Below, piece by piece: positions 5,198-31,758 of a stretch of DNA of 64,000 nucleotides. Position 1 is the stretch's first letter. Each line of letters opens with the position of its first letter. Both the position numbers and the translations under genes were made by a program. The notes below the pieces were generated by a model. The model ran no database searches and had not been told where the DNA came from. It was given only the letters and a program-made list of their open reading frames with translations. Source of the DNA: a virus; the IMG/VR virus record IMGVR_UViG_3300032323_001800, positions 62,001 to 126,000 of that record; one strand, given 5' to 3'.

Positions 5198-5199
5198 TT

Positions 5200-7164: not shown

Positions 7165-7193
7165 GGTTTAATCCGCTGTTTGTAATATTTAAC

Positions 7194-9173: not shown

Positions 9174-9183
9174 ATTTTATACC

Positions 9184-11393: not shown

Positions 11394-12050
11394 TTATACC
11401 TCAGTAAAACCGGTTAAGCTTTGTACTCGAACGGTATAATCTATTTGAATTAATCGATTTAATGATTTTTGCACAGGGTGAAAAATAACATGAGTTAAAA
11501 GCCTGCCAGTTCCGGCTGCTTTTAATCCCAATTCATCAAATACAAATTCGCCGGACAAGTCAGTTGAATTGTCAAACGCCTCTTGGCCGCTTGGTTCGCC
11601 GTAGTCTAATAAACAGGAAACTAAAATATCAGAATAAGTTGCTCCGCTGATATGTCTAACTTCCATTTTATTTCTAATGTTATCAGTATTAATAGCAGAA
11701 TTTTGATCAACAACTTTTAGATAAGTTTGATTATATAAACTTGAATTTATACCCACAGTGTTTGGAGTCAAATAGGTAATTAACCCTGTTGGATCTACCA
11801 CTGTACCTCCGTTGCCAAATACCATTTCTGATATCCATCCTTGACCTTGGTTTGATAACGCACTAGCCATTGCTACTGACATATTTTCGTAGTGTATAGC
11901 GTTTCGTTTATCTATGAAAACTTCTTTAGTTTCAGGGTCAAATATTTTAATATGACCTTCAACATGAAATCCCATATTCTCGTCAGGGCGAGAAATTGGT
12001 ATATTTTTATCTGTATTTTGTGGCATAATTTTAGACTCGTCTTTTTCCAT
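11394..12050 (-). CDS. Conserved T4-like virion protein downstream of the giant protein
   Basis: A 218-residue protein if the ATG at 12050 is used, 210 if translation begins at the ATG at 12026 (MPQNTDKN). A late-type octamer at 12056-12063 would start a transcript close to 12050, which favours 12026 for that message; readthrough from upstream could use either. Features include GHIKIFDPETKEVFIDKRNA, IHYENMS, WISEMVFGNGGTVVDPTG and a beta-rich C-terminus. I recall similar proteins among structural genes of marine T4-like phages, without a defined role. It sits between the giant protein and the first fibre, so a fibre-attachment or wedge role is plausible but unproven. Confidence 0.65.
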   Translation of the reverse strand: MEKDESKIMPQNTDKNIPISRPDENMGFHVEGHIKIFDPETKEVFIDKRNAIHYENMSVAMASALSNQGQGWISEMVFGNGGTVVDPTGLITYLTPNTVGINSSLYNQTYLKVVDQNSAINTDNIRNKMEVRHISGATYSDILVSCLLDYGEPSGQEAFDNSTDLSGEFVFDELGLKAAGTGRLLTHVIFHPVQKSLNRLIQIDYTVRVQSLTGFTEV

Positions 12051-12055: not shown

Positions 12056-12063
12056 TATTTATT
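12056..12063 (-). promoter_or_regulatory. Candidate late promoter octamer AATAAATA
   Basis: AATAAATA read on the minus strand overlaps the stop codon of the giant gene and lies 29 bases before the ATG at 12026, but only 5 before the ATG at 12050. It matches the T4-type late -10 octamer (TATAAATA) at seven of eight positions. Confidence 0.45.
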
Positions 12064-15000
12064 AGAGCAATTTTGTTGTTCGCTGTTGCAGGAATTTAGC
12101 AATAGGTGTAGTATTTTGGCTCAGCGTAACGCCTGTTGTAACTTCGTCGGCGCCTTGATTATACCAAACTTTTCCAGTTCGTTTAATAACTGTAATACGT
12201 GCTCCGGCTGGCGGAGTTTGGGTAATTCTTATAGCATTTGTTTGATTATCAACTGAAAATTCTGCTTCTAAAGTGACATCTCCCGCTGGACTGTAAGATC
12301 CTACTGTAGAATCATACACTGTAATTGGATCCTTTCTCAAGCGGCGACCTTGAACAAAAACTTCAATAGTATCGCAAGGATAAAAATTGTCCGGAATAGA
12401 ATTTGTATATGTAAATTCTACTAAGATTCCTTGCTGATTTTTTCTTGCTGCTGGAACAAACGGTAATCCTGTATAAATTTCAGAACTACCATCTGCTACA
12501 AAATCGTACCTATCTTGTGATTCTTTGTAAGGAACAATTTCTCGATATCCTACATCCACAACATAAGATTCTACAGGATGGGTAATTGCTATAGAAGTTC
12601 CTAATGTTCCTCTTCTTAGATCCTTTAACACATTTCCAACTTTGCGTAGATACTCAATTCTTTCACCGTTAATTGTTACAATTCCCGGCAATTTTAATTG
12701 AGGAGTACTTAATGTAGTAGCATCATTAACTTCCATTTCGTCATCGTAATAGTTAAGTTCTTTAGTTAGCTTAACATCCGTAACTGTATATCTATTATAG
12801 TGATGACTATTTAAAATATCTTTAAAAATTTCAAAAGCAAATGGTTGTTTATAAACCTCAGTAGCAAAAGAAATTATTTCTATTTCATCATCTTCTGTAT
12901 TACTATCTTTTAGATAAACAGTATTTCTTGGATAGTCAATATAGAAATCCACATCTGGAGTTAATCTGTCTCCGTTTTTATAAACCCAAACATAAGACAC
13001 TCCTAACGGAGCTCGTTGAAGTGGGTAATTTAATTGGCCACCAGTTCTAACATCTTTAACTAAATCTACTGACGAGTAACGATCAAACCAAATAATATCA
13101 ATTTTATCACCGGCTGTTAAAATTACATCATTAGATAACACAAGATTATTATCAATAATTTCATATTGCACTGCTTCGTATGTTTCTACTCGGATAACAT
13201 CACCGTGGTTTATATTTTGTTTAATAACATTAACACTGTTTGTAGCAGCTGAGAATTCATATTCAATACCAAATATTAGTGGAATATTGTTAATATAAGC
13301 TCTTACCTGAGCTTGAACAATTCCGCCAAATGTTTTTAATGGATCTCGTCCAACATTAACTATTCTATTTGTTCCGTCATATGTCTGTATAACGGTGTCA
13401 GCACATCTTAACAACTTATTGTTTAACTCAACAATAACGTTACCTGTAGCTGACGCTTGTAATTCAACAAAATCAGTCACAGCATATGTACGCTGAGAAG
13501 TATTAGTAACTGTTATAGTTTGATAGTTTGCTCTCACAATAGAATTGTCAGTTCCTGATTCGCCTGAAAGAACAATAATAGATACTTTAGATCCATTAGG
13601 TGGGGCAATACCAAACTCAACTAATGCTTTGTCGATATTATTAACAACACCGTTACTGTTAACAAATGCTACAGGAGTTGTTGAATAATCCACGGTAGCA
13701 AACACTCGACCGGCTTCTGCGTAAGATGCTGCTGTTAAGAAATATCGATTTGAACCGTCGCCTACAAATTCTCTATAATCTAAAATTTCAACACCGCCGA
13801 TACTTATTGAAAATATTTCAATTAATGAATTATTAATCGGTGCTGTTAAAAATCTTATTTGTTGTGTATCTGATACAAATGTATAATCAACATCAACTTC
13901 TTGTTTCACCTTATCAACAAACACAATAACAGAAGAATTTTCAAGAATAGTTTGTCCTATATTGTATAAAATAGTTGTGCCATCAGCGGTATAAATTCTT
14001 GACAATATCGCAGGTGCTCCTTGTCGATCTGAATGGAATACTTTTATGCTTACAGATTCTAGTACTTGCCCCGGAATGTTTTCTTCAGGAGCAGGAACTT
14101 GATCAGGACTTATAAACTTATCACCTTCGATAACTATCTCAGCTGCGGTTAACCCTGTTGCCGTTGAATAGGCTCCATTAATTGCGTTTGGTGCAACTAA
14201 GTTTCCTGTAGTATTGCTAGATAACAATCCACCGCTAACGTCGGCGTCGATTAGGTTAGCGTCTGTAATTGATAAAGAACCATCGCTAGTATCTGGACGG
14301 AATATCAGCACGTCGCCGTCTTGTATCGTTACCGCTGGAGGAATTACTATTGACCGCGTTGATCCATCACCAATAAATGTATCCATTACTGCTGTATCTA
14401 TCGGAGCATCACTCAATACTAGTATATTTTGCAATACTTGATCTAATGTTTGTTCCAACAAAACTACTGACTGAGTAGCGGTATTGTATTCTGTAGTTGC
14501 CGTTGCTAGTGCTGAATTAGCATTAGATAATGCTAAAATCAACGGTGCTTCAGCAGCCTCTAATGCGTCTAAAGTTACATTTAACGCATCAATTTCATCT
14601 TGCTTATCATTGATTTCTGTTTGTTTATCATCAATTGCAGAAACTATAGCATCAAGTTGATTCACCAATGTCTGATATGCTGGATTAGGAATAACATTCG
14701 ATGGTGGAACAAAAATTGTAGGCGGAGTTGAAGCAATTTGTATTTCTATCGACGATTTTTGATTATTTAAAACACTCAACTCGACCTGTAAATCTCCTCG
14801 ATCGTTTTCGGCCTGTGTAATGTCGCTTTCAATAGATGAAATTTCTAGTTGTTTGTTCAACAATAGTGTATTAGCAGAATTTCTATCAATCTGAGCTTGA
14901 TTTAACAAATTTAATTTTTGTTGTTTAATAAGATTTTGATTAATAATTTGAGATTCTAATGTAGTCTGTTGATCTTCTAAATTGTTTCTTCTCTCATTTA

Positions 15001-18000
15001 AATTTTGTCCCTGAAGAACTGTCACAAACTCAGTATAATTTGTATCGTCAATTCTTTCGTAAATTCCTGTAACAGAATTTCTTAGATAAATGTTGATTGC
15101 TTGCCCATCTAGTGGCACTTCGGGCAATACAAACATATTTGTAGTTCCGTCGGCAGTAATATAAAAATCTGAATTTAAAGAATCAACGCTATCCCAGCCT
15201 TCCGTAAACCAAGGCAGTGCATCCCAGCCGCCGCTGACGTCTAGTGTGGCACCTTGAACTACTACTCCACCAAAGTCTATTCCTGTTATTAGTTGAGAAT
15301 AGTCGTAATCAATCTTAATGATTTCTTGCGTAATATCATCTCTAATAACAGTTTTTTCTAATCCTATCATTCCATCTGTAGGATTATAATATTTGTCTAT
15401 CCTGTTGAGAGAATCTAATGATTGGTCATTTTTCTCATATTCAACAGTTACAAGAATGGTTTTTGCTGGTGCTGAATTAAGTGTTAGTTTTCCTACTTGG
15501 ATAGTTAATCCATTAACTTTAGTAGTATCAATAGATACACTGTACTGGCCGGTTAATAGCTTTTGTCCTGGTGAAGTAGTTGTATCAGTTATTAATTTTG
15601 TATAGACATTTACCTTTGTCTTGTCAAGTGCTGCAGGATATTTTAACTCAAATACAGTCTTACTTCCAGTGCCAGTAAAGGTTTGAATTTCTTTAAATTT
15701 CTCATCCAACGCCTTGGCTGTAAATGTAGATGATTTACTTACTCTATCAAATTTCATCGATACATCAAAAGTTCTTGCTTTTGTGTTTCCAATTACCGCA
15801 ATAGCAGTTGCAGCGTTTGATAAGTTAGTTCCAACCCCGCCTACTAATTTTACCGTTGGCGCAGAAATATATCCAGTTCCGCTGTTAGTTAATACTATTC
15901 GACTAACTTTTCCATTAGAGATAAATGCTCTAGCAGACGCACCTGTGCCACCGCCTCCTTCAAATACCACAATCGGAACAGTTTTATATCCGGATCCAAC
16001 GTTAGATATTTGAATGTCTATTACTGAGTATTTGTAATTGTCTAACCAGTATTTCCATGGATATGTATCAATTTCAGTAGAAATAATTTTAACAGGTTCA
16101 ATACTGTTAGTATCAGGATTATATACCGAAGGAACATCGAAGTCGCTGAAACTTGTCGATGTATTTTCAGTTCTAATATATCTACTTGTATATTCTCGTA
16201 TCTTAGTTCGGTACGGTTTGACTTCTTCTATATACTTTTGATAGCTAGGTAAATTGTCACTCTTGTAAGTGATCTTTTGTGTTAAATTTCCAACGTTATG
16301 GATGGCATTAACAAAACTTGTTTTAAACGCCCAATCTACATATAACTGTTCTGAAAATGCATAATGAATATTAGCAAAGAAAAGTTTATTCCATTCTACT
16401 CGCAGATCATCTAAGAAAATATCATTCTTAACAGATTCTAAAATAATTCTAAACTCTCTAGCCGAAGACTGATCGTATCCATTACTATCAAATGATGTAG
16501 TCTTATCATATCCTGTAGAATTACTTTCAGTGTTTATAAAACTGTCATTTATTTGTATTGTTCCGTTTGATCTACCAACAAGTCGATACTTATCGAGTAT
16601 AGTTGAATTTTCTATAGACGTTCTTTCTAGTACTGCCCAGTTGCCAGCACCATACTCTCGTATTCTTAGCAATTGACCAATTGTTAAATTAACTTCAGAT
16701 TCTTGATATAGTCCTACAATTTCATTAGTGATTCTAGATTTTTCTGAGAACCCTTCAGCCCACCAATCAATAGTAGTCCAGTAATTTCTTGTGTTGTATG
16801 ATTGAGTAGCAGTTCTATAAAACTCTTTTGCTTTTTCATTCCAGCTGTAGATGCTCCAATAATTTCTCACAGTTGAATCAGATTTAACTAAAACTGCAAA
16901 TTGTCTAACAGACAACGCTGCTGAAAGATATTTTGCTCCAGAATTTACAACAGTCACAGATATTACTCTACCCAATCGATCAATGTTGGCACGCAATATC
17001 GCGCCTGATCCTGATCCAGTAACTATAATTGGAGGAGATACCCTATATCCATATCCGGCTTCAATAACATCTACAGTATCAATTTTTCCATTAGCAATAT
17101 TTGCTTTTAAAATTGCGGGAGATATCTTTGACGTAGAAACTAATGCTAATTCTTCTTTAGTTTCTACCGTTCTATCATATAGATTTTTAACATCTGCCGG
17201 GGCAACTTCAAAAGAATTTAATCTAGTAGTATTAATAATTTCTGCAAACGGTCTTGTTTTTAAAATATTATTAATAAAATCTAAAGTTATTTGTGTTGCT
17301 TTGTTTCTATCAACAAACATACTCTGACGAGGTCTGCTTGATAAACCATACTTAAATTTTGTTGGCAGTTTAAAATCTGGAACATCTTTTCCTGTAATAT
17401 CGTAACCAATTAATGAATCAATCCATTTATTTTCTAGTTCAGGAGACGGCAGGCTGTCTGCTACTCCTTCGGTTAGAAGCTGATATTCTCTATGGACTTG
17501 ATTAATTTGTTTGCTGTTTTTATAGAACTGAATAGTAACAGATACATTATTTCCAGTAATTGCTATTGTCGGATTATATACTGCAATTTTTTCGTTGTCT
17601 ATTAATGCCGCAAAAGTTATTCCTGTACCTAAAGGATTTTGAATGTATTGAGCTACTGAACTTGCAGCAATCTTTCTAAAGTTTTTATTAGTTGGTAACG
17701 TTATTTTATCTTTAACCCAGTAATAATAAATTCGAGAACTTACTCTTCCAGTCAAAATATCTACATTTTCTTTAACAGAGTATGAACTATTATCAGGGTA
17801 TAGTGGTGTTCCCGATACTCCAACACTGAATGCGTCAGCTGTGACTGTTATATCAGCCCACTCACTAGGAAGATATTCAGTTTCAACCCATTCATACACA
17901 TCAATCGACGATCCGTATGCTAAAGAGTTCCATCCTCCTAACTTGTAAGAAATGTCACCCTGGTTATAATTTGCCCACTTAACTGTGCTTGTGTCCCACC

Positions 18001-21000
18001 ACAAATAACCTACCATGTTGTCAAACCAGGCTCTAGATGCGTCAGCAGAAGTACCAACTGAATAAACTGCAGGATCGTAGGATGTTTTAAATTTTAATTC
18101 TTGTTCAGCGACTGATAAAATTTTTCCGTTTAACGGATCTATTACATCAACGTCTAATAGTTTAATATTTGAATCGGAATCGAATAAAGATAACGATTTT
18201 AATAATGTTAAATCAACTACAGGCTCTTGGCTACGTAACGGTGACCAGGCATTGATATTTTTATATTTTCTAAATGTTTGAACCTTACCTATGACTGAAC
18301 CAAGAAATGCATCTTCCGAAGATGTAAATGCAGGAGATCCTATAATCACTCGATCGTCAAAACATGCTAAAGATTTTCCAAAATTTTCTCCAGTGATTAA
18401 ACCTTCATCAAAAGATTCAGATAATATAAACGTATCACCGTATCTATTATAGATATAAACTTTACCAGTAATTCCTACCGGGTCTCTAAATCTTGTTAGC
18501 AAGTAGTCAAAGTTAGTTTCGCCTCTATCAAAATTTATTAATGTAGATGCTACAGCCGAACCTGCAGTAATGGCTATTGTGTCAGCCGTTGGAGATACTG
18601 ATATTTCGTCTCCGAATCTTTCAAAGAAATCAAAAGAGTAACTTTCTAATCGTTGAATATATTCAAATCTATTATTAACATTTTTAAAGACGAACACAGC
18701 ACCTTTGTCTTTTTCTTTAATGTCGGCATCCGGAGCTGAAACAAATAATAAATTTCCTTCACGGCTTAATACAACCTTAAATCCAAGCTCGTCTCCGGAC
18801 TCTAGATCGTCAGTGATAATATCATTATCGTCGATCGTTTGAACTAGTTCATAAATGTTTTCTTGATTTTTTAGATAAACAAATACTGCTCCAGTATTAT
18901 ATTCAGATGCGTTCGATACCTTTTCCCATACTGTTCCACTAACTGGAAGTTGATTTAAACTTTCAATAGCTAGTAATTTATAATATGTTGGTTGTGCTGA
19001 CTCGACAATTTTTACAACATCGTTACGATTATATTCTTGATAAGACTTCCATGTACCTTTATAATTTTCTAAATCCGCAGTATCGGCAAACGGAGCTCCT
19101 ACTACTAACAACGACGCATCTGAGGACATTGTTGTAGAATATCCATATCGATCTCCTACATTTAATAACTCAGGAGTTTGATCTCCAACCAAACCAACTT
19201 CAATAGATGAACCATCATTCGGATAAGCAGGCTGTATTGGCAATATACCAGCATTGAGAGAATTAACTAATTCCCAACCAACTGTGTCTGTTGTAATCGT
19301 TGTACCGCTATTTTTAAAATACGGAACAGTTGATCTCCAATAGTTATTATTATACCATACTATCGATCCAGTTGCATAATCGTTGGCTGGGTTAAAAATC
19401 CCTACAAAGTTATTATCATCCGATTGTGTCCAATTAATACCGTCAAAACTGTATAGATAAATTCTTCCTTTGCTATCTAACGCACCAGGAGCAGAAATAG
19501 CCATATAATATGCTTCTGATGCTCCTCCTATGTTAGATCCTAAAATTCTAATTTGGTCTCCAACGTTATATCGTGTTCCTCGAACATTAACCGTAGCAGC
19601 ATATCTGCCGTTAGATCTAACCAGTTCAAAAATTGCTCCTGAACCGCTTTGACTAATGTCAGTACCAATAATATCCGAATATGACCCTAACCCTACTGAT
19701 GTTCCTACGAAACTAACTCCGGATTTAGCAACACCTGAGATAGTAAAGTTTCTGATACTGTTATCAATAAACTTCATTGGATTAGCAGATGGCGATGATG
19801 CTGATGTTAAAGTTACAATTTGTTTTGTTAAAGGGTCACTGTAAATTGTAAAAGATGTACTGTTAATAATCTCTTTTACAAAGTACTGGCTTCCTGAAGA
19901 AATCCCGCCGACCGCACTGCCTGTAAAGACAATAGGCATATCAACTCTTAATGTAGCTGTAGATCCTACAACAACCGTTGAGTTAGTTTCAAATGTTCCA
20001 ACAGTGGTTATTGGTAAGTTTGGGCTTACTCTAATTAAAAGATCGTTAGCCGGTGTGTCACCGCCCAGTGTTGTACCCGGAACCAAAATAGTAGATCCCG
20101 ATCTATATTTTGTCAAGTCTCCTAAATTGCCATCCGATGTTGATGTTACATAGGCTTTCCATGGAGTTGCTAAACTTAAAAATGTGCCTGCTGAAACTTC
20201 TTCCCAATATTCAAGATTAGTAGGGAGAATCGGTTCTGATACTTCCCAATAGTCAGTATCAGTTGGTAACACAAATTGTACTTCTTGTATTGATCCATCC
20301 AGTCCATTTTTAACTCTATAGTACGAAGACGATCTAAACGGATACTTAACCACATCTCCTGTATAGTAAGTGGCGTTCGAGTCCCACACACCTCGATCTG
20401 TCTGGGTATCTTTTATACAGCCATAATATCTTAAACCTAATCCTGGAGCAGAATATGAAACAATACTTCTTCCAGTGTATCCCACACCTCTGTTGATTAT
20501 TGCTACTGCGTATGTATTTCTAGTACGTGTTACATTAAACACAGCCTCATTAGTTGGAATAGTGGAGTTAATACCTGTAAGATTAGAATATGTTTCAGAT
20601 CCAATAATTGAACCGCCGGTGTCAATGGCTGTTACTGTAATTAACAAATCGTTTTCTGGAGACGACCCACCTACCTGTGTTCCTAATACATTTATTTGAT
20701 CACCTAACGCATATCTTGTACCGCCGTTTCTCACGGTTACTACATATGTGCCACCGGATTTTGTAATGTTAAACGAAGCGCCATTTCCTGAATCACTGAT
20801 GTCTGTACCACCAATGTTTTGGTATGTGGCATCTTTTAATCCGCTAGTTCCCACAGCATCAACAATAGTAATACCGCCGTTAGGGTCAATTGCTTTAACA
20901 ATTAACGTTACATCACCGCTGGTGCCTTCAATACCTTCTTGTTTTCCGATTGAAACACTGCTACCAAATAGTTCGTTAGCTTCCGGGCGAGGACTGATAA

Positions 21001-24000
21001 TTGTTTTTCTATATGTCCATTGACCTTGTGTAAATTCAAAAATATCAACACATCCCTGTTTAGGGTATCCTGGATTAGTACCTATTAAGTTCTTAGCTGC
21101 AGGTTGTGCTTCATGTAGATCAACTGGGCTCCAGTCATCGCTACTTAGGTTGATTGTGCTGCCGTCACCTAAAATAGGTTTGTTAGCTTTCCATAATTTT
21201 CCTGTGTAAATCACAGTGTCGTTGGTATTATATTCTGCCGAGGTACTATACTGCCCTTTAAATCCAGAAGGAATTCCAGAAGCAGTTGGTGACGCAACAA
21301 GTAACCATCTTCCGTCCGGACTTACCGATAACACAGTTCCGTATGATCCTAATAGCTCAGGTGCAATTTCAAATATAGGACTTAATACTTGACTAGGTAC
21401 TAGGCCGTCTAAACTCTGTGTATAAACAATTACAGCAGAATCTCTCGATGTATCGTTAGAAGCAACTCTAGCACCAGGATTAGACACAATAGTCTGATCC
21501 CTTGACGGAACGTAAGCAACCGCACTGCCCATGCTTGCTGGGAACGAAACACCATATTCTGATATTCCTGTTTTAGAATATTGTTTTGTACGCTGTAATA
21601 CTTCCCAATTTCCGGTAGCATTTTTATCTAACCATACTTTAGAACCTAATGGAAGAATTGAAAAATCTTCCTTTATTAATTCGTCAGTGCTGGATATTCT
21701 CGCTGGCAGGAAAACACCAACATTACAGAAAGAACTTTGATCTATTTCTGGTGGTTCTTCAAATCCCAATACCTCTATAACGATTGTTGTAGTGTTTGAC
21801 GCTTTAATTTTATAAAAACCTGTCAACCCTTTAATATTTGTTAAACCAATAATAGTTCCGGTTGTTAAACGATGTGGTCTGTTAGTTGTTATAACTGCAT
21901 TTCGTTGATCAATGGCCGCAACCGCAATTACTGTTACATTGGTTATTTTATATCGTAAAATATCCCAACCACCCGTTTCATACGTTATCCAAATTACAGA
22001 ACCATCATTAAACTGTGTTACATCGTTTCCGATTAATTCATCAAAATTCTTAATTACAAAATCTACGTCATCGACATTAACATACCCTGCTCCGGAATTA
22101 GGAACAGAAATATTTTTAGTTTGAATAATTTGATTTTTACTATCACCAATTTGATAATTTTGGTCTGATAATACTATGTAATTTTTATATTCATTTTGAT
22201 CAATTGAACGATCATTTAAAATAATAGGTTGAGGATTTAGTTTAAATTGGTCTTTGCCTATTTTAAATTCAATTTCATTAAATTGATCTGTTCCACCAAT
22301 TTGTCCTAATCTAAATGCCCATTCTTCATTTATTTCAATAGCATCGCTATCAACAGAACTTATTTTATCAAATATTTTTTTGATAGAATTGTTAGTTCCT
22401 TTTTCTCTAATAAATCCTTGATATAATCTGTATTGTGTTACATCGTCTTCGGCAAGATCTCGTAGATAATCTCTAGATTGATATCCAATAGAATGTCTAG
22501 CTAATTCTCGCTGACTAGATCCCAACCCTTCCGAATCTAAATCATAAAAGTCTTCAAACTGACTTATCCTATAATCAAAATTTGCTACTAAACCAGTTTC
22601 AGGACGACTATCTAATTTTTCCCAGTTGCTAGGATTAAATTCAGCCTCTCCCGATTGTGCTACTTTGCTTACGTAATTAAATTCTTTATAGGTAGCAATA
22701 TCTCCTAATTTGTAATCAACAAACGGTGACCACGGTTGGATATTGACATCGTCGAATAAAAATCCAGGGCTAGTATAATCGCCATCCCAATCAGTTGTTC
22801 TAAAACCTAAAACTTTGATTCTCTGCTGTCTATATCCTGGACCCTTGTCAAACATGACATCATTGAACATAGTTCTATCAGAAAATACAACTACGTGTTC
22901 TTTTAACACATAGTTAATTCTAGCAAAATATATGCCGTCTCTGATATTAACTGGAGCTATAGCAAATTCGTTGTATCGTCTTATAACATCAATGTTTGCC
23001 GGTAATAATTTAGTTCCGTCGCTCTTTAAAATTGTATATTCATAAAATGAATCTAAAAGGTTATCTGCAACTCCGCCGGTAGATATTAATTTTAATTTAA
23101 TGGCTGCAGGGCTTACTGATAAGATTGCTCCCGGTGCCCAGTTATGACTGGTCCAGAACATAAATTCTTTTGATGTAGTTTCCCAGTTAGCAACTGATTG
23201 AAGTTCGCTGCTGAACTCGTCGAATACAAATCCAAGATCTTTTAATCGTTCTCCGTATCCTAATAAGAAATCAACAACATCTTGAACTGTTTCTAACGCT
23301 GTTCCGTATGATAATCTCTTTAAATCTGTCTTGTCAAAATATGTTCTTTTGGTTGCTTCAATAGCACCAACAAGAGGAATTTGAGTTATTCTAACCCATT
23401 TAGTTGCATCAAACTGGTCTTCCGATGTGTGGGCTGTTACAGATCTAAAAAATTGCTCGTTGTATCTTACAATTATACCTTTGGTATAGAATTGATTGTT
23501 TTGCCACGCAACGTATGTTTCGCTAACACCGCCTACAAATATTTTAGGATCTGCGTTGGTTGGTAACGAAGGATAATATTCAAAATATGTGTTTAGTCGA
23601 TCATATCCTCTAATAATCCATGCTCTAGCCGACTTTTCAAGTATAACTCCGGAATATGTAAGACTCTGTACAGATGATCCGATGTTAAAAAATATGTCAT
23701 AATTTTCTGGAGGTATAAAAACACTGCTTGTAGATGCCTGTGGATTTTTAGAATCTAAAATATATTTCTGTTGTGACTTATCAACAAATCCGCCAATTCT
23801 ATTAGACATGTTAATATCAAAATTTTCTAATTTTTCAATTAATGATGTTTTGTCTTTTAGATCAACTTTTAAATAATTGTCAATATAGTAAAACAATCCA
23901 GACGGAGTAATATCGCCATTAAGGATTTCCAGTAAGTCAGAAATTTTAACAAAATAATTACTGTTAGAACTTACAAGCTGACCTAATTTATTTTTCTTAA

Positions 24001-27000
24001 CTTTAGTTTTATCTAAACTTGCAGGAATAAATTCAAAAGGTCTTAATAAGCACAAAGCAAAAATAACACTGAACGGATAAGCAGAACTTTTTCTCCAAGC
24101 ATACTCTGCCGGAGCGACATCACCAAATTTAAAATCTAGTTGATTATTAAATGTAGAATAATTGTCAAGAACATTTAATAGTAACGGATTTTTTAATTCA
24201 CCGTCTTCATCTGTAGGAATAATATCTAGTAAATTAGATCTCTTATATCTGTCATGCTGGCCGGCTCGTGGGCCTTGACGAATTATACCGTCCTTTAAGT
24301 CTTCCCATAAAATTAAGTTTCCGCTGGTATATGGAGCAGGACCGTATTCATCTTCCCACCATAGTGGTTTTTGTGTAAAGCCCAACATTTCCCAAGGTGA
24401 AATATGTGGTCTGTCAGTATCATATAAAGATAAAAACATACCTCGCCAAAAGCTAGGCAATTCTTCTCGAGTAGTTTTATCGACTACTTGAGAATATGTA
24501 TAAGTGAATGGGTTTGACACTTGATAAAAATTATTACCAAATAGATCAATGTCAGTAGTGGATGCCCATCTTAAAAATTCTTGATTTATTACTGTATTAA
24601 AATTAGACTGTGTAAAGATTCCAGTTTTATAAAATGACGATAATGTTTTATCAATATCAAATGTTTCTTCGTCATATTCAATTTTTATGTTATTATAAAT
24701 TCGTTTTTCTAATTCTAATAATAAATCGTCTCTAAAGTCGTTGAATGCAATTGTTATACTGCCGTCGTGGCCTCTTATTACCTTTTTAGGTTCTAGGTAT
24801 GTAGTATCAACATAGATTTCTGGTTCGTATTTTTTATACATTCCCATCTTGGTAGGTGTGGGAGGTACAAAGTTAAATGCTGTTGAAAAATATTCTTTAA
24901 TTTGAATATTATCGTTTTCATTTAATGGTTTTAAAATTTTAACAAAACCAAACGTAGCATCAAACTCGTAGTCTTTACCGTTAATGCCTTGTTGATTGTT
25001 TATATACACATAGGTTGCTTTCGATGATATTACCGATAGATCAAATTTGTCACCTAAGGAAAACACATTGATACCAGTGTCTTCAACAGTATAATCAATA
25101 GTCGTAAACGCACCAGAACCTACCATGTCAGAATCAACAAATGGTGATTTAATTGTTTTTGCCTGAGAAATAGTTGTTAAAATATCATCAACAAATTTAA
25201 CAGGATCTCCGTTATCATATGGCAATTCTATAGCTAATGTTAAAAAATTATTTTTAAACTTTTCGTATTCAGCTGAAGCAAATCTAATCGAATTTATTAT
25301 ATTTGTTTCTTTATTGCACAACAAATTAATCGACAAAGTTGGAATACCGGAATGTTTTAAAAATCTTCTTCCGTACTGTTCATAATCAATTAAATCTCTT
25401 AAATTGCCGCTACCGGGATATGTTCCTTCAAATCCATCGACTAGCTCAACCATTGATCCTAAATGATCGTTAAGCTGTCCTAAAGTAAATGACTGTAGAT
25501 CTTGATTTAACGGATTTCTTTCAAGACCAAACGGGATTTCATAATAACCATCAACTGGTTCAGCGTCTGAATAAACTTTAAAGGTCACAGTGTCACCTGA
25601 TATCAGTTTATTACTAACAGTTATTTTCTTTTTATTGTTTTCAATAACAGTACTAATAGGAGTTACTAAATTTCCATTAACATAGCAAATTGTTTTATCT
25701 CTAGTAGATGAATTCCAATCACATGCTGTTGAAATTACAACATTGGTATCTTCTAATACTGTAATCGTTTGAATAATTGCCTGCAAATATTTGCTGTCAA
25801 TCAGTGTCCATCCGTTTTCGTATGTGTATTCAGTTAATGATCTATTATTTCTATAATACCCTTTATTCACTAATTCTGTGATAATTTGAAAATTTTCTTG
25901 GTATGAGAAGTTATCACGGTCCCAGTCAAATTCAAACTGGATGTCTCCTGAATTGTTAATATTCAGATAGCTTAATGGAAACTCGAGTTCGGTATCATTA
26001 TTTCCCGTACCAATCACATAACTAATAATTTCTGATCCAGTAAATGACGAAGTGTTGTACTTTGTTAAATCTCCTACAGATACCCCGTCAATGTCAAATA
26101 CATCAAATAGTGGCGGTTGATTTACCTTTGTTTTTTCTTGGCTTCTAATCCATGATTCACCGTTAAAGTGAAACATCTTATTTCTATTTTCTACACCACG
26201 TTTAACAACCAGCCCTTCACCGGGATTAGAAACAGTGTCTGTAGTCTCTATCAAACTAATTTGTCGTCTATTAACAATATTAGTACTAGCTTGTACTGTA
26301 ATAAATTTAACTTCAAATATTTTATTTTTTACTAAAGGATCAGTGTCTGCTGTAAAAAGAATTCGATATCCGTCTGTTAAAGGCTCTCCGTCAATGTTAT
26401 AACCAGATGACCCTTCGATGACTGAAAATATATCAGTAGTAAAGTCGTCAATTAAATCAACACTGGTTTTAGCAACAACGCCATGATTAAACAGTTGAAG
26501 GTCGGCATTAAATTCAATAATTGGTCTTTTTGCTCTTAGATTTTCATCTATTTTTGCATCAGTGTTATTGAGCTCTCCGGTATATTCTAATACAGATCTA
26601 TGGAACCATCTATTATATCTGCTCCATGGATTTTTATCTAAACTAGATCGATTAATTGTGATATAGTCTTTGCTTCTTGGATACGATAGTGATTCATCAA
26701 ACGGTTGGTCATCGAATCCGCCATCGTCAAACAACACTTCTGGATTAGGATTCGAAATAGGTGGAAGTTCAATGGTTTCCCAATTAATTAATCGTATAGC
26801 ATCTCCAACACCCTCGATTACCCAAGATCCTTGTTTATAAATTGAAGGTGATGTTTGTCCTTCAAATTTAACTCTTAGACCATTGGTAAATTTAACTCCG
26901 TTCGAACTAATATATTTTTGCTTGCCTATAACATCTTTCTCAATATCTAAGAAAGTGTTTTCTTTAATTTCAGCGATCCTAAATGTTCCAACTCTATCTC

Positions 27001-27760
27001 GAGTGGTCGAACTTTGATAATATAATAATTCAGGAGCATCGTTAGGTACTTCAAATATAACTTTTCCTACTTGAGTTCCGCTGTTAGTCACTCCCTTGGT
27101 ATAATTTGATTGCTCACCTAATACATTTGAGGTTCTGATAAAAAACGGGTCGCCTGGCGAATTTACGTCAAATTCGTAAGTTTGGCCGCGGTATAAAGTA
27201 ATTGACGGATTTTTCTTAAGTCCGTCTGGATAAAAAATCCACTCTGATGTTCCGCTGGTTCTCACACGGTACGATGATATTGTTTCTCTTGCTTGTCCTT
27301 GAACAGCAACCGAATCAACTCCAACTGGTTGCCAATAATATTCTCTGTAATTAACAAATTTGTCCCAGTCAATAGGAGGAGCCCAAGCATATGAATCATT
27401 GCCTGTAATTTGATCATCTCTTTCTAGACTGTTGCCAAAGAATTTTAATTGATTTTTAAAATCAATATAATCGTTGAATTCAGAGATTCTATTGTTTTTT
27501 CTAACAACTACAGCAGGTTCTAATTGATAAGCATCACGTAATGTATCGGCTCTATCTATATAGACATCAGTCGAGTTAAAAGTTTTTCCGTACTTTCTTC
27601 CAATGTATCCAGATAACTTTTCTAAAGTACCTGGTTGTACAAGAGCGTCTAACGTAGCACCTAAGAATTTTTCATTGGCGTTAGTCTGAAAAATATCAGG
27701 TAACAGTTCAATAGTTCTTCTAATAGGCAATCCGCTAGATTTAAAAACTTTATTTTCCAT
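12062..27760 (-). CDS. Giant 5232-residue tail/baseplate protein
   Basis: One uninterrupted frame follows gp6, where T4 has gp7 (about 1030 residues). The N-terminus (SSGLPIRRTIELLPDIFQTN, LGATLDALVQPGTLEKL, YIGRKYGKTF, WDKFVNYREYYWQPVG) resembles a large virion protein I recall from T4-like cyanophages. Visible parts: about six CBM5/12-like modules between residues 1415 and 2953 (pattern Y-x-x-GD-x-V-x-Y...Y...W); FG-GAP-like blades between about 2070 and 3160 (SVSPDGRWLLVASP, MSSDASLLVVGAPFAD, LSREGNLLFVSAPDAD); G-x-GY beta repeats; a long helical hairpin near 4250-4450; and C-terminal GDGSxR-type fibre repeats. It probably encircles or decorates the baseplate and may bind surface glycans. 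No enzymatic motif is recognised. Start: ATG at 27760, two bases after gp6. Confidence 0.85.
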   Translation of the reverse strand: MENKVFKSSGLPIRRTIELLPDIFQTNANEKFLGATLDALVQPGTLEKLSGYIGRKYGKTFNSTDVYIDRADTLRDAYQLEPAVVVRKNNRISEFNDYIDFKNQLKFFGNSLERDDQITGNDSYAWAPPIDWDKFVNYREYYWQPVGVDSVAVQGQARETISSYRVRTSGTSEWIFYPDGLKKNPSITLYRGQTYEFDVNSPGDPFFIRTSNVLGEQSNYTKGVTNSGTQVGKVIFEVPNDAPELLYYQSSTTRDRVGTFRIAEIKENTFLDIEKDVIGKQKYISSNGVKFTNGLRVKFEGQTSPSIYKQGSWVIEGVGDAIRLINWETIELPPISNPNPEVLFDDGGFDDQPFDESLSYPRSKDYITINRSSLDKNPWSRYNRWFHRSVLEYTGELNNTDAKIDENLRAKRPIIEFNADLQLFNHGVVAKTSVDLIDDFTTDIFSVIEGSSGYNIDGEPLTDGYRILFTADTDPLVKNKIFEVKFITVQASTNIVNRRQISLIETTDTVSNPGEGLVVKRGVENRNKMFHFNGESWIRSQEKTKVNQPPLFDVFDIDGVSVGDLTKYNTSSFTGSEIISYVIGTGNNDTELEFPLSYLNINNSGDIQFEFDWDRDNFSYQENFQIITELVNKGYYRNNRSLTEYTYENGWTLIDSKYLQAIIQTITVLEDTNVVISTACDWNSSTRDKTICYVNGNLVTPISTVIENNKKKITVSNKLISGDTVTFKVYSDAEPVDGYYEIPFGLERNPLNQDLQSFTLGQLNDHLGSMVELVDGFEGTYPGSGNLRDLIDYEQYGRRFLKHSGIPTLSINLLCNKETNIINSIRFASAEYEKFKNNFLTLAIELPYDNGDPVKFVDDILTTISQAKTIKSPFVDSDMVGSGAFTTIDYTVEDTGINVFSLGDKFDLSVISSKATYVYINNQQGINGKDYEFDATFGFVKILKPLNENDNIQIKEYFSTAFNFVPPTPTKMGMYKKYEPEIYVDTTYLEPKKVIRGHDGSITIAFNDFRDDLLLELEKRIYNNIKIEYDEETFDIDKTLSSFYKTGIFTQSNFNTVINQEFLRWASTTDIDLFGNNFYQVSNPFTYTYSQVVDKTTREELPSFWRGMFLSLYDTDRPHISPWEMLGFTQKPLWWEDEYGPAPYTSGNLILWEDLKDGIIRQGPRAGQHDRYKRSNLLDIIPTDEDGELKNPLLLNVLDNYSTFNNQLDFKFGDVAPAEYAWRKSSAYPFSVIFALCLLRPFEFIPASLDKTKVKKNKLGQLVSSNSNYFVKISDLLEILNGDITPSGLFYYIDNYLKVDLKDKTSLIEKLENFDINMSNRIGGFVDKSQQKYILDSKNPQASTSSVFIPPENYDIFFNIGSSVQSLTYSGVILEKSARAWIIRGYDRLNTYFEYYPSLPTNADPKIFVGGVSETYVAWQNNQFYTKGIIVRYNEQFFRSVTAHTSEDQFDATKWVRITQIPLVGAIEATKRTYFDKTDLKRLSYGTALETVQDVVDFLLGYGERLKDLGFVFDEFSSELQSVANWETTSKEFMFWTSHNWAPGAILSVSPAAIKLKLISTGGVADNLLDSFYEYTILKSDGTKLLPANIDVIRRYNEFAIAPVNIRDGIYFARINYVLKEHVVVFSDRTMFNDVMFDKGPGYRQQRIKVLGFRTTDWDGDYTSPGFLFDDVNIQPWSPFVDYKLGDIATYKEFNYVSKVAQSGEAEFNPSNWEKLDSRPETGLVANFDYRISQFEDFYDLDSEGLGSSQRELARHSIGYQSRDYLRDLAEDDVTQYRLYQGFIREKGTNNSIKKIFDKISSVDSDAIEINEEWAFRLGQIGGTDQFNEIEFKIGKDQFKLNPQPIILNDRSIDQNEYKNYIVLSDQNYQIGDSKNQIIQTKNISVPNSGAGYVNVDDVDFVIKNFDELIGNDVTQFNDGSVIWITYETGGWDILRYKITNVTVIAVAAIDQRNAVITTNRPHRLTTGTIIGLTNIKGLTGFYKIKASNTTTIVIEVLGFEEPPEIDQSSFCNVGVFLPARISSTDELIKEDFSILPLGSKVWLDKNATGNWEVLQRTKQYSKTGISEYGVSFPASMGSAVAYVPSRDQTIVSNPGARVASNDTSRDSAVIVYTQSLDGLVPSQVLSPIFEIAPELLGSYGTVLSVSPDGRWLLVASPTASGIPSGFKGQYSTSAEYNTNDTVIYTGKLWKANKPILGDGSTINLSSDDWSPVDLHEAQPAAKNLIGTNPGYPKQGCVDIFEFTQGQWTYRKTIISPRPEANELFGSSVSIGKQEGIEGTSGDVTLIVKAIDPNGGITIVDAVGTSGLKDATYQNIGGTDISDSGNGASFNITKSGGTYVVTVRNGGTRYALGDQINVLGTQVGGSSPENDLLITVTAIDTGGSIIGSETYSNLTGINSTIPTNEAVFNVTRTRNTYAVAIINRGVGYTGRSIVSYSAPGLGLRYYGCIKDTQTDRGVWDSNATYYTGDVVKYPFRSSSYYRVKNGLDGSIQEVQFVLPTDTDYWEVSEPILPTNLEYWEEVSAGTFLSLATPWKAYVTSTSDGNLGDLTKYRSGSTILVPGTTLGGDTPANDLLIRVSPNLPITTVGTFETNSTVVVGSTATLRVDMPIVFTGSAVGGISSGSQYFVKEIINSTSFTIYSDPLTKQIVTLTSASSPSANPMKFIDNSIRNFTISGVAKSGVSFVGTSVGLGSYSDIIGTDISQSGSGAIFELVRSNGRYAATVNVRGTRYNVGDQIRILGSNIGGASEAYYMAISAPGALDSKGRIYLYSFDGINWTQSDDNNFVGIFNPANDYATGSIVWYNNNYWRSTVPYFKNSGTTITTDTVGWELVNSLNAGILPIQPAYPNDGSSIEVGLVGDQTPELLNVGDRYGYSTTMSSDASLLVVGAPFADTADLENYKGTWKSYQEYNRNDVVKIVESAQPTYYKLLAIESLNQLPVSGTVWEKVSNASEYNTGAVFVYLKNQENIYELVQTIDDNDIITDDLESGDELGFKVVLSREGNLLFVSAPDADIKEKDKGAVFVFKNVNNRFEYIQRLESYSFDFFERFGDEISVSPTADTIAITAGSAVASTLINFDRGETNFDYLLTRFRDPVGITGKVYIYNRYGDTFILSESFDEGLITGENFGKSLACFDDRVIIGSPAFTSSEDAFLGSVIGKVQTFRKYKNINAWSPLRSQEPVVDLTLLKSLSLFDSDSNIKLLDVDVIDPLNGKILSVAEQELKFKTSYDPAVYSVGTSADASRAWFDNMVGYLWWDTSTVKWANYNQGDISYKLGGWNSLAYGSSIDVYEWVETEYLPSEWADITVTADAFSVGVSGTPLYPDNSSYSVKENVDILTGRVSSRIYYYWVKDKITLPTNKNFRKIAASSVAQYIQNPLGTGITFAALIDNEKIAVYNPTIAITGNNVSVTIQFYKNSKQINQVHREYQLLTEGVADSLPSPELENKWIDSLIGYDITGKDVPDFKLPTKFKYGLSSRPRQSMFVDRNKATQITLDFINNILKTRPFAEIINTTRLNSFEVAPADVKNLYDRTVETKEELALVSTSKISPAILKANIANGKIDTVDVIEAGYGYRVSPPIIVTGSGSGAILRANIDRLGRVISVTVVNSGAKYLSAALSVRQFAVLVKSDSTVRNYWSIYSWNEKAKEFYRTATQSYNTRNYWTTIDWWAEGFSEKSRITNEIVGLYQESEVNLTIGQLLRIREYGAGNWAVLERTSIENSTILDKYRLVGRSNGTIQINDSFINTESNSTGYDKTTSFDSNGYDQSSAREFRIILESVKNDIFLDDLRVEWNKLFFANIHYAFSEQLYVDWAFKTSFVNAIHNVGNLTQKITYKSDNLPSYQKYIEEVKPYRTKIREYTSRYIRTENTSTSFSDFDVPSVYNPDTNSIEPVKIISTEIDTYPWKYWLDNYKYSVIDIQISNVGSGYKTVPIVVFEGGGGTGASARAFISNGKVSRIVLTNSGTGYISAPTVKLVGGVGTNLSNAATAIAVIGNTKARTFDVSMKFDRVSKSSTFTAKALDEKFKEIQTFTGTGSKTVFELKYPAALDKTKVNVYTKLITDTTTSPGQKLLTGQYSVSIDTTKVNGLTIQVGKLTLNSAPAKTILVTVEYEKNDQSLDSLNRIDKYYNPTDGMIGLEKTVIRDDITQEIIKIDYDYSQLITGIDFGGVVVQGATLDVSGGWDALPWFTEGWDSVDSLNSDFYITADGTTNMFVLPEVPLDGQAINIYLRNSVTGIYERIDDTNYTEFVTVLQGQNLNERRNNLEDQQTTLESQIINQNLIKQQKLNLLNQAQIDRNSANTLLLNKQLEISSIESDITQAENDRGDLQVELSVLNNQKSSIEIQIASTPPTIFVPPSNVIPNPAYQTLVNQLDAIVSAIDDKQTEINDKQDEIDALNVTLDALEAAEAPLILALSNANSALATATTEYNTATQSVVLLEQTLDQVLQNILVLSDAPIDTAVMDTFIGDGSTRSIVIPPAVTIQDGDVLIFRPDTSDGSLSITDANLIDADVSGGLLSSNTTGNLVAPNAINGAYSTATGLTAAEIVIEGDKFISPDQVPAPEENIPGQVLESVSIKVFHSDRQGAPAILSRIYTADGTTILYNIGQTILENSSVIVFVDKVKQEVDVDYTFVSDTQQIRFLTAPINNSLIEIFSISIGGVEILDYREFVGDGSNRYFLTAASYAEAGRVFATVDYSTTPVAFVNSNGVVNNIDKALVEFGIAPPNGSKVSIIVLSGESGTDNSIVRANYQTITVTNTSQRTYAVTDFVELQASATGNVIVELNNKLLRCADTVIQTYDGTNRIVNVGRDPLKTFGGIVQAQVRAYINNIPLIFGIEYEFSAATNSVNVIKQNINHGDVIRVETYEAVQYEIIDNNLVLSNDVILTAGDKIDIIWFDRYSSVDLVKDVRTGGQLNYPLQRAPLGVSYVWVYKNGDRLTPDVDFYIDYPRNTVYLKDSNTEDDEIEIISFATEVYKQPFAFEIFKDILNSHHYNRYTVTDVKLTKELNYYDDEMEVNDATTLSTPQLKLPGIVTINGERIEYLRKVGNVLKDLRRGTLGTSIAITHPVESYVVDVGYREIVPYKESQDRYDFVADGSSEIYTGLPFVPAARKNQQGILVEFTYTNSIPDNFYPCDTIEVFVQGRRLRKDPITVYDSTVGSYSPAGDVTLEAEFSVDNQTNAIRITQTPPAGARITVIKRTGKVWYNQGADEVTTGVTLSQNTTPIAKFLQQRTTKLL

Positions 27761-27762
27761 CT

Positions 27763-30700
27763 TTATCTACTCGTTGTTGTAATGATTTGATTTGCTGACA
27801 AATTTAATTCAGTAGCTGTGATATTTGAAATAATTTCAATATTATCAACGTTTGCTGAACTAATAAAAATTTCATCGGGCCTTGATTGAATTTCTAACAA
27901 ACTTCCAAACACTTGATTAGGCTGTTTAGGTACTAACACCATGTTACTAATGTCAGGTGAATTTTGTGTAATAACGTATGTAATCAATTCGCTGGCAAAA
28001 AACTTATCGCCAAAGTCCCAATTTTCAATTGAAAAGAACTGTGCTATAGAGTTAATTATCCTAACTTTAAGGTCGTTATTATTAATCGACTTGGATGGAT
28101 TCTTGACCACTTTAAACGTAGCTTGAAACTCTGATTGTGCTATGTCACCAAACAATGAAAAATATCTCACCGGATGATAAACGATTTCATCACTGAGTGA
28201 TTTAATATCGTCTAATGTTGATCCAAACTGGATTTTTAATTCTTCGCTTGTTGGCGATGGCGGTTCAATGGTTCGATTTCCAGCAATCCACTGTCTGTAT
28301 TCAGTATCGTAAATTCTTGTTAGAAGATAGATATCAATAATATTACTTGAGCTAGGATCTATTCTTCTATCAACTCCGGCATTATGTATATACTGAAACT
28401 TAAGATTTGATCGGCCAACATATGCTACATATACTGGTTCTAATATAAAGGATCTTGTGATTAGGTCAGTTCTTTTAATAACATTTTCAGCAGAGTCGTA
28501 GAAATAAACTAGCTGGTTGTGCTCAAAGTCATTAACATTTGTATTAACTTCTCTATCACGAATAATGATTAGGCCATTTACATTAGGAACGTAAATTAAT
28601 TGTTTAGAACCAAAATCATCTAATTCTTCTTTAAAGAACAAATATCTATCGTTGTTATCAAATCCAACAACTTCGTCAAAACTATCTGGATTGTCAATTA
28701 CTCCGTCGTTGTCGGAATCATAATAGACAACTTTTATCGAATCAGTACTTTGATATCCATCATCATATCTCACAGAATCATAAATTTCAAAAGGCACGTC
28801 TTGTTTTAATACTTGATTTTGATCAACAATAGCCAACACCTCGTTAAACGTAAATGTTGGATTTGCGTTTCTTAATGTAACAATGTCTTGAGCAATCTCA
28901 ATAATGCTGCGATCTCTTCCTTCTGGAACTCTATTAATTCCTAGAATCTTAATTTGATCTTTAATTACCTGTCTAGTTTTACTATCATAAATTTTTTCAT
29001 TTTTGTCAAAATAGAATCTATTTTGTAGTTCGCTGGCAAAAATATAGTCAGATGATCTAACTCTAATAATATATTCGTCACCATCAAAAATAAACGCAGC
29101 TAACCACGAACTATCAATATTTGTATTTCGAGTGTCGCCTGCTTGTCCTAAACTAAAATTACCATTTAAGTCAAGATTTGAGCTTGTTACAATTTTCCAT
29201 TGTCTTGTTGATATGTCATATCGAATACCAAAAATTCTTGACGCAAACATCAACTCCACTACTTCAGTTTCAAACTCCGATGAAAAGTTATTAACAAACT
29301 TAGGGACTACTTGTGTAGGTAGAGCATTCGATGGAATTGGATCGCTTAATATGATTGGTCCAAATCCAGTATTAAGATTACCGCGACCGGCGTTAGTTCC
29401 GTCTCCAGCAACGCTAACAATTTTAGTCCATATATATTTTCTTTGATCTACATCAGCAGGATCGTATTCTACAACTTCATTATTTTTAAATGCTTGAGAT
29501 TCTTGAGGTGGAATAAATTTTACCAATGCGCCGGCTTCGACAAATCTCATGTTACTATTTGTGTAGATGCCTACCTGAACTGGTGTTCTATCAAACACAT
29601 TACCAAAATATCCGGTTGTTGATGTTTCGTCTGTAGTAGTTTGACTCCACGATACATTAACGTCAGATGTAAAAATTTTATCAAAGTTAGTAATGTAAAA
29701 ATTATAAATTTCACCTGAATCAATTATAGGCTCAAATGTATTTCTTATAAAATTTAAAATTGTATTTTTATTTTTTGATTTAAATGTAAAAGTTTTTTCG
29801 TAGTTTTTTCTATAAATTAACCCATCATCAGCAAACACATTTACCTTAGAATATTTTCCAGAGGCATCGATAATATCAAAATTTCTACTAATTCCACTGC
29901 TGGTTCTGTTAATGGATTTTACTTTTAAAATCTCTTGCGAACTGCCTAACGGAGCAAGATTATAATCTTCTCCGGTAATCATTCTGTTCTGTGTATAATA
30001 TATTGCCGGAGCATTGGTTCTTATTGATTCGATATCTTCCGACGGAGCACTGTTAGCTACGGTATAATTTAAACTCAATGAAAGTGTTAGAGTATGCTGT
30101 ATTCCTAACTTATTGACATAAGGTACCGCAATTGCAATTCCCTTAACTTCGCTTGGCTCTATTGAATATCTTAAACCATTCGATACTCTATAATAAACTC
30201 GCATAGCGCCAACTGGTAAATTTCCATATACACCGTCAGCAAAATTTAAATCAACAGCATCATCAGTTTTAGTAATAATTGAATAGATGTTTCGTTGATT
30301 ATTTTTTAAACTGTTGTAAGCAATATTGTTACCAACTACAGCCGAAACTTGTGTCCATAAATCTGTTTCAATATTTTGAGAATCAAGTTTGTACAGCCAT
30401 ATATCGTTGTTGTTAATCCCTGTGGTGTTTATGCTTACTTTTTCGTTAGGTACGGGCTGTGTTACCTGGAAGTCAGCAAGTTCTAAACTTCCTTGTTTAA
30501 ACATCATAAAGAATCCAGTATTAGGACTGGCATTACCTTTGCCGTCTTGTTTATAAACAAACCCTAATTTATTTCCTGGAAACGGTGCTTCTTCATAAAT
30601 TTTATTTTCGTCTTTGAATGTTGTACTAACGATTTCAAAGGCCATAAAGCGGCCGGCCACTGTCTTACTAAACGTATAAACAGGAACGTCTGCTGTAGAT

Positions 30701-31272
30701 GTATTAAATCTGTATTGATCAGTTTGAATACCGTCAATAACTGATGATAATTGGCTTCTGCCGAATTCTACATTATCGACCATCGATGAATTCATAACCA
30801 ACAAAAACTGTTCGAACCAGTTAGGGTTAGTAGGATCATTCCATTGGACTGACTGTCTTGCTAAATTTCTTCCGTTACTATCAATTAATGTGTCCGTGGT
30901 GCTGATAGTATCAAATTTTAATAGGCCACTAGCTCCGATATTTCTTTTAGCGTTATATGCCAATGTTCTGGCAAGTCGTAAAACACTTTCTTTACGTTCT
31001 GCTAGTTCAATAAAGTTTTCTCTAGATGCTAGATCAATGCGGAATGAAAGGCTTTGCCCTAAGAATGCAATTAAGTCAATTAAAGCAACATATTCGGAAC
31101 TTTCAATGTAATCGTTAAAATCTTCGGGATAGTTTTCTCTGAGATAAGAAATCATAACACGACGAAGATTTTCAAAATCGTATGATTTGAAATCTGCGTT
31201 TTTAAATGTTTGATAAACTCTAGTCCAATCTTCTGCTAGAATTAAATTATTTTGCCTTGCTGTTGTGGTCAT
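27763..31272 (-). CDS. 6: Baseplate wedge protein gp6
   Basis: This 1169-residue protein is recognised by its N-terminal signature: DFKSYDFENLRRVMISYLRE, then NYPEDFNDYIESSEYVALID, LIAFLGQSLSFRIDL, ENFIELAERKESVLRLAR. gp6 forms the ring of the T4 baseplate wedge together with gp25 and gp53, both encoded just upstream. T4 gp6 is about 660 residues, so this is an enlarged version. The C-terminal ~150 residues, with YHPVRYFSLFGDIAQSEFQ and WDFGDKFFASELITYVI, resemble the gp6/baseplate-J core fold, so the extra length is in the middle. A late octamer lies 18 bases upstream with AGGAT between, so it probably heads its own late transcript. Confidence 0.92.
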   Translation of the reverse strand: MTTTARQNNLILAEDWTRVYQTFKNADFKSYDFENLRRVMISYLRENYPEDFNDYIESSEYVALIDLIAFLGQSLSFRIDLASRENFIELAERKESVLRLARTLAYNAKRNIGASGLLKFDTISTTDTLIDSNGRNLARQSVQWNDPTNPNWFEQFLLVMNSSMVDNVEFGRSQLSSVIDGIQTDQYRFNTSTADVPVYTFSKTVAGRFMAFEIVSTTFKDENKIYEEAPFPGNKLGFVYKQDGKGNASPNTGFFMMFKQGSLELADFQVTQPVPNEKVSINTTGINNNDIWLYKLDSQNIETDLWTQVSAVVGNNIAYNSLKNNQRNIYSIITKTDDAVDLNFADGVYGNLPVGAMRVYYRVSNGLRYSIEPSEVKGIAIAVPYVNKLGIQHTLTLSLSLNYTVANSAPSEDIESIRTNAPAIYYTQNRMITGEDYNLAPLGSSQEILKVKSINRTSSGISRNFDIIDASGKYSKVNVFADDGLIYRKNYEKTFTFKSKNKNTILNFIRNTFEPIIDSGEIYNFYITNFDKIFTSDVNVSWSQTTTDETSTTGYFGNVFDRTPVQVGIYTNSNMRFVEAGALVKFIPPQESQAFKNNEVVEYDPADVDQRKYIWTKIVSVAGDGTNAGRGNLNTGFGPIILSDPIPSNALPTQVVPKFVNNFSSEFETEVVELMFASRIFGIRYDISTRQWKIVTSSNLDLNGNFSLGQAGDTRNTNIDSSWLAAFIFDGDEYIIRVRSSDYIFASELQNRFYFDKNEKIYDSKTRQVIKDQIKILGINRVPEGRDRSIIEIAQDIVTLRNANPTFTFNEVLAIVDQNQVLKQDVPFEIYDSVRYDDGYQSTDSIKVVYYDSDNDGVIDNPDSFDEVVGFDNNDRYLFFKEELDDFGSKQLIYVPNVNGLIIIRDREVNTNVNDFEHNQLVYFYDSAENVIKRTDLITRSFILEPVYVAYVGRSNLKFQYIHNAGVDRRIDPSSSNIIDIYLLTRIYDTEYRQWIAGNRTIEPPSPTSEELKIQFGSTLDDIKSLSDEIVYHPVRYFSLFGDIAQSEFQATFKVVKNPSKSINNNDLKVRIINSIAQFFSIENWDFGDKFFASELITYVITQNSPDISNMVLVPKQPNQVFGSLLEIQSRPDEIFISSANVDNIEIISNITATELNLSANQIITTTSR

Positions 31273-31290
31273 ATTTCTTATCCTGTCTAA

Positions 31291-31298
31291 TATTTATT
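31291..31298 (-). promoter_or_regulatory. Late promoter octamer before gp6
   Basis: AATAAATA on the minus strand, 18 bases before the gp6 ATG, with a Shine-Dalgarno-like AGGAT in between. The spacing matches the octamers before gp48 and fibre paralogue 1. Confidence 0.65.
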
Positions 31299-31319
31299 TT
31301 GATTTATTATGTACGCATA

Positions 31320-31757: not shown

Positions 31758-31758
31758 A

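Follow-up and report, generated by a model that had tools for sequence, protein, structure and literature searches.

A Giant Protein in the gp7 Position of an Environmental T4-Like Phage, Probably a gp7-Type Baseplate Wedge Protein

An environmental T4-like phage related to RaK2 and PA5oct carries, in its baseplate gene cluster, a single unbroken gene for a protein of 5,232 residues, most likely an enlarged baseplate wedge protein of the gp7 type; we consider this identification probable. It draws on the position of the gene, its family, its collinearity with known virion proteins, its domain make-up, and a match to a short gp7 core segment in the interior of the chain.

Reading Frame of the Giant Gene

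The window, that is, the whole 64,000-nucleotide stretch of DNA analyzed, was taken from an environmental virus record of 187,929 bp, in which it spans positions 62001-126000. The gene under study is as follows:

12062..27760, minus strand: giant virion/baseplate protein gene, PHROG 10938, ATG start to stop, 5,232 codons (5,232 aa)

The uninterrupted single-frame gene described in the sequence-only reading is confirmed: one frame runs from ATG to stop on the minus strand, with zero internal stops across its whole length; the predicted product has a mass of about 583 kDa and a pI of 4.7. The gene lies 2 bp from the gp6-like gene that precedes it and 11 bp from the gene that follows. Against window positions 14164-32525, the contig L061, which was assembled independently, shows only 10 mismatches in 18,362 bp, and a single unbroken ORF of 4,561-5,155 aa was found in 16 of the 16 relatives examined whole, the window protein being the longest of these 17. 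Codon-position differences from the closest relative are 0.26/0.17/0.52 overall, and a pattern of this type is kept in every 500-residue block against the same relative; the codons are under purifying selection from end to end.

Three fragmentary contigs with shortened or split frames (L011, 2,399 aa; L029, 4,049 aa; L051, 3,100 + 1,331 aa) might be taken to indicate that the long frame is a product of assembly or sequencing error. However, near-identical contigs with intact frames exist for L011 and L029 (L010 and L030, respectively), so the short frames of these two are likely sequencing or strain frameshifts. Given the near-identical independent contig, the 16 intact relatives, and the selection throughout, the artifact hypothesis is refuted, its remaining probability being vanishingly small. 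The gene is real, and chance is excluded; assembly error, a conserved internal stop, and homologues divided among several genes, each of which could have overturned the earlier claim, did not appear.

Genomic Neighborhood

The genes surrounding the giant on the minus strand are as follows:

31759..33384, minus strand: gp5-like baseplate hub protein (profile matches)
31320..31757, minus strand: gp25-like sheath initiator (profile matches)
27763..31272, minus strand: gp6-like baseplate wedge subunit, 1,169 aa (phrog_10646 E 3e-286, phrog_219 E 9e-20)
11394..12050, minus strand: conserved downstream protein, 218 aa, phrog_11259 (profile match)
305-2092, 3086-4825, 5200-7164, 7194-9173, 9184-11391, minus strand: five fiber-like genes with a common N-terminal domain

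Read along this strand, the hub, gp25-like, and gp6-like genes come before the giant, and the 218-aa protein and the five fiber-like genes come after it. The locus thus has the T4-type order gp5/gp25-gp6-gp7, which bears out the gp7 position assigned earlier, and in relatives with upstream sequence a gp6-sized gene likewise comes immediately before the giant. The gp6-like wedge protein is itself enlarged (1,169 aa, as against 660 aa for T4 gp6). The major capsid protein shares 68-69% identity with its counterparts in PA5oct and Phosso and 66% with those in CBB and GAP32, which places the phage among the T4-like phages in the wide sense, near the RaK2/PA5oct-type jumbo phages.

The domain common to the five fiber-like proteins is N-terminal and spans about 80-95 residues, with 34-52 identities over 74-95 aligned columns, and the sequences diverge beyond it; from this pattern, the genes (305-11391) look like tandem duplicates with swapped tips. 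A 12-bp/48-bp tandem repeat at 6093-6234, within the 5200-7164 gene, encodes G-N-V-T-type repeats. Also among the fiber genes is a small protein (2599-3117, minus) that resembles by eye a 2OG-Fe(II) oxygenase-like protein at 40642-41193 (plus), and that has no Pfam match. Elsewhere in the window, an 895-aa protein (44740-47427, plus) matches glycoside hydrolase 19 (chitinase/lysozyme type) close to its C-terminus and may be a tape-measure or hub protein that incorporates a wall-degrading domain, and a large protein cut by the window end (61687-64000, plus) combines a laminin-G/lectin-type domain with DUF1565. Another very long fiber-type protein lies outside the window: a frame of 2,685 aa close to the start of the record (G000), with a T4 gp9/gp10 N-terminal motif at positions 749-859.

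Homologues in Isolated Phages

Two overlapping pieces of the giant match the PHROG 10938 "virion structural protein" profile (E 1.1e-255 and 3.4e-69), and a match in the core region is present in 41 of 41 relatives. The following members come from isolated phages:

PA5oct gp355: 3,857 aa, annotated as detected in virions by ESI-MS/MS
Atu_ph07 gp180: 4,449 aa
SCTP-2 gp140: 3,807 aa
RaK2 ORF070: 3,326 aa
Phosso 294: 4,555 aa

Within this family, the mark of virion detection is attached to the PA5oct homologue only. The gene preceding the homologue is annotated as a baseplate wedge in PA5oct, Atu_ph07, RaK2, and Phosso, and in SCTP-2 an unannotated 3,096-aa protein occupies the gp6 place before gp140. 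Profile searches made chunk by chunk found residues 1-2050 and 3000-4050 to be homologous, in collinear order, to the proteins of all five isolates, the zone between these blocks measuring about 110 residues in RaK2, about 950 in the window protein, and about 1,500 in Atu_ph07. Nearly the entire AlphaFold2 (AF2) model of the N-terminal region also matches predicted structures of proteins from Atu_ph07 and uncultured phages, the nine top hits having TM 0.59-0.81. When the whole gene was compared with isolated phages by megablast, zero matches resulted; the isolates searched thus include no kin at the DNA level. Contigs with relatives of the N-terminal region of the giant (L117-L125) are binned as marine MAGs (Pelagibacter, Neomarinimicrobiota, Porticoccaceae, and others); they may be phage contigs binned alongside hosts, which is not proof of host.

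Since isolated phages carry collinear homologues, the protein has precedents, as does its size class; the giant is a new member of an already known family of giant baseplate-linked proteins. The earlier suggestion that it would be one of the largest phage proteins holds in that it is relatively large, but must be tempered by the annotated gp7 of P-SSM4 (7,312 aa, directly after gp25-gp6 in GenBank) and by the five jumbo isolates at 3,326-4,555 aa.

A gp7 Core Segment Within the Giant

The segment that links the giant to gp7 lies about one-third of the way along the chain:

22322..22471, minus strand: gp7 core segment (helix, KGT turn, helix), residues 1764-1813 (hmmsearch E 7e-6)

A helix-KG(T/I)-helix segment is common to T4 gp7, the cyanophage giants in the gp7 position, a 503-aa protein of Stenotrophomonas phage Moby located after gp6, and phi812 gp120, and PHROG models already connect T4 gp7 with the cyanophage giants through it. 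A core profile was built from 47 segments of T4-, cyanophage-, Moby-, and phi812-type gp7, with giants of the window family left out; the set was assembled by hand, phi812 being added after its resemblance had been noticed. This profile matched residues 1764-1813 with an E-value of 7e-6 among 22 proteins, and in a search of the 162 window ORFs the giant scored 5e-5 and the next best 1.8. With hhalign, the giant's segment 1741-1840 gave P 7.8e-6, as against 0.018 for the best background among 172 such segments. A first motif profile of nine sequences had ranked the correct segment first, but weakly (P 0.0016), and the larger profile made it clear. The profile scores at the aligned place in most relatives, the motif's K and G do not vary across 41 sequences (K, G, and N in A2), and the segment is among the best-conserved stretches of the giant.

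The likeness is confined to this segment. The sequence-only reading had pointed to the N-terminal 300 residues as the place to look for gp7; profile and fold searches with residues 1-300 up to 1-1,200 revealed no gp7 similarity there. The giant produced no profile match to the T4-type gp7 family phrog_964 and no full-length sequence match to T4 gp7, and long pieces of it aligned by hhalign with T4 gp7, the cyanophage giants, and phi812 gp120 were not significant except in the glycine-rich repeats. Profiles of residues 1-1199 and 1460-2060 gave only weak chitin-binding matches against PDB sequences. T4 gp7 is also absent from the listed PDB fold matches of both models (Foldseek and VIA-align), which counts neither way. 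An N-terminal helix tried as the first helix of the gp7 core bundle was not significant (rank 8 of 173 segments) and was rejected. In the AF2 model of the core region, made without partners, confidence is low (pLDDT under 50 around residues 1776-1826), as one would anticipate of a chain whose folding depends on partners. Overall, the earlier gp7 reading is supported over a core of 50 residues and finds no support in the N-terminal region: the comparisons support a gp7 core inside the giant, the gp7-like part amounting to about 50 of 5,232 residues.

Such a small fraction leaves some room for a peripheral baseplate or tail-fiber-network protein, comparable to cyanophage VrlC or gp10-type fiber adaptors, that sits in the gp7 place while the true gp7 is elsewhere or absent. 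Most recognizable domains are indeed of fiber or adhesin types, the glycine-rich repeats are common to cyanophage VrlC and gp7-position proteins alike, and PHROG labels the family merely "virion structural protein." Yet the core segment occurs in the giant and in no other window ORF, and even very distant phages retain the place immediately after gp6, so that we regard this alternative as rather unlikely and prefer the gp7-type wedge protein.

Modular Architecture

Around the core, the following modules were delimited, all encoded on the minus strand:

24164..27760, minus strand: N-terminal family-conserved region, residues 1-1199 (AF2 mean pLDDT 78.7)
26957..27286, minus strand: cupredoxin-like beta barrel, residues 159-268 (Z 10.9, rmsd 2.4, 96 aligned)
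23396..23506, minus strand: CBM5/12-like module 1, residues 1419-1455 (profile)
22616..22732, minus strand: CBM5/12-like module 2, residues 1677-1715 (profile and fold match)
18305..21346, minus strand: FG-GAP beta-propeller, five repeats detected, residues 2139-3152 (profile)
18920..21250, minus strand: CBM5/12-like modules 3-6, residues 2171-2211, 2459-2506, 2789-2830, and 2904-2947 (profile)
19511..20863, minus strand: clade-specific insert of three beta repeats, residues about 2300-2750 (conservation, iterated profile)
15830..17104, minus strand: glycine-rich repeats, residues 3553-3977, common to cyanophage gp7-position and VrlC proteins
12866..15679, minus strand: six T7-tail-fiber-N-terminal-like beta domains, residues 4028-4965 (profile)
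14423..14995, minus strand: coiled-coil-like insert, residues 4256-4446, variable among relatives (coiled coil judged by eye)

The N-terminal region matches as a whole fold a structural protein of Atu_ph07 and "YHYH domain" proteins of uncultured phages. Its cupredoxin-like barrel, whose segment gives a further match to phrog_677, a gp9-type connector family, in the C-terminal part of that family, probably represents a structural use of the fold, since the usual copper ligands seem by eye to be missing. The assignment to the chitin-binding CBM5/12 type (Pfam CBM_5_12, PF02839) has an E-value of 5.8e-12 and 45.9 bits, against a cut-off of 26.2; the six copies were counted by iterated profile, two lying before the core and four inside the FG-GAP propeller, which is broken up by CBM modules and variable inserts. 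Module 2 superposes closely on a segment (8fqc_P1) from the receptor-binding complex in the baseplate of Agrobacterium phage Milano (Z 8.2, rmsd 1.2, 45 aligned). In searches of both models against the PDB with Foldseek and VIA-align, the only standouts were the cupredoxin-like barrel, the CBM5/12 module, and a small beta barrel. Self-BLAST of the giant returned no internal repeats; these appeared by profile iteration. The three beta repeats at about 2300-2750 were found only in the five members of the nearest clade and are missing in most relatives, and this insert accounts for much of the extra length of the window protein.

Except for two variable stretches, one at about 2300-2750 and the other at about 4200-4450, conservation is even along the giant, as expected for a conserved framework bearing exposed variable modules. 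A very long modular chain with low-conservation zones (2300-2750 and 4200-4450) could alternatively be a precursor that is cut into several mature proteins during tail assembly, the 583-kDa chain being absent from the virion. However, homologues encoded as separate genes were found in none of those examined whole, and selection is similar at both ends, making such processing quite improbable.

Proposed Role in the Baseplate

As a gp7-type wedge protein, the giant would use its core near residues 1764-1813 to join two copies of the neighboring gp6 in a (gp6)2-gp7 wedge junction, a placement that follows from the known (gp6)2-gp7 architecture (PMC10457771; PMC6300606). The 1,750 residues before the core and the 3,400 after it would then form two modular, beta-rich arms pointing outward. 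The large peripheral baseplate structure suggested by the sequence-only reading is plausible. These arms may serve as docking platforms for the fiber proteins encoded just downstream, of which the five described above are candidates for attachment. Contact with glycans on the cell surface would be made through the propeller and CBM5/12 modules, glycan binding being predicted from the CBM5/12 profile, and a binding signal could be handed from the arms to the wedge to trigger contraction. The wedge stoichiometry and the two-arm geometry, like the docking, glycan binding, and signal passing, are what we infer for this assembly.

A bolder version, in which most of the T4 baseplate periphery has been merged into a single chain, its gp7 core and two arms replacing gp8, gp10, and gp11, is unlikely; gp8 and gp11 matches were not found in the record by searches that are unable to establish absence. 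If true, this chain would carry its own glycan-binding propeller, uniting receptor sensing and wedge triggering in one polypeptide.

For the "virion structural protein" giants of RaK2/PA5oct-type phages, the present analysis supplies a probable identity as gp7-type wedge proteins, one that rests on a short core common to the T4, cyanophage, and Herelleviridae gp7 types.

Comparison with Known Systems

The closest counterparts, the PHROG 10938 proteins of isolated phages, occupy the same place after a gp6-type wedge gene (annotated as such in four of the five) but are shorter than the window protein (3,326-4,555 vs. 5,232 aa) and have one or no detected CBM5/12 module, as against six; the middle zone differs, and the C-terminal array is weakly shared. 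T4 gp7 (1,032 aa; PDB 5hx2/5iv5) has a matching core segment near its residues 716-765, whereas the window protein is five times longer and shows no detectable similarity to it outside genome position and core. The cyanophage giants, P-SSM4 gp7 and S-PM2d081 (3,048 aa, in the gp7 position of cyanophage S-PM2), have the core segment and glycine-rich repeats in common with the window protein but lack overall homology to it, and they have the core near residue 700 or 195, as against 1,790 in the window protein. The segment of phi812 gp120 is one of those included in the gp7 profile.

At the other extreme of size, XM1 gp17, TssG, and P2 gpI, the expected functional equivalents as single-copy partner of a gp6-type dimer (PMC10457771; PMC6300606), are tiny beside the giant. 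In the 242-aa XM1 gp17, a gp7 orthologue, an internal loop (80-106) and the C-terminus hold two spike sets (PMC10457771), which may be viewed as a small-scale parallel to the core-plus-arms plan proposed here. The range from 242 aa (XM1) to 7,312 aa (P-SSM4) suggests that gp7-type proteins grow via modules added around a small fixed core; if so, the adaptation of environmental phages to host surfaces would be readable from such proteins.
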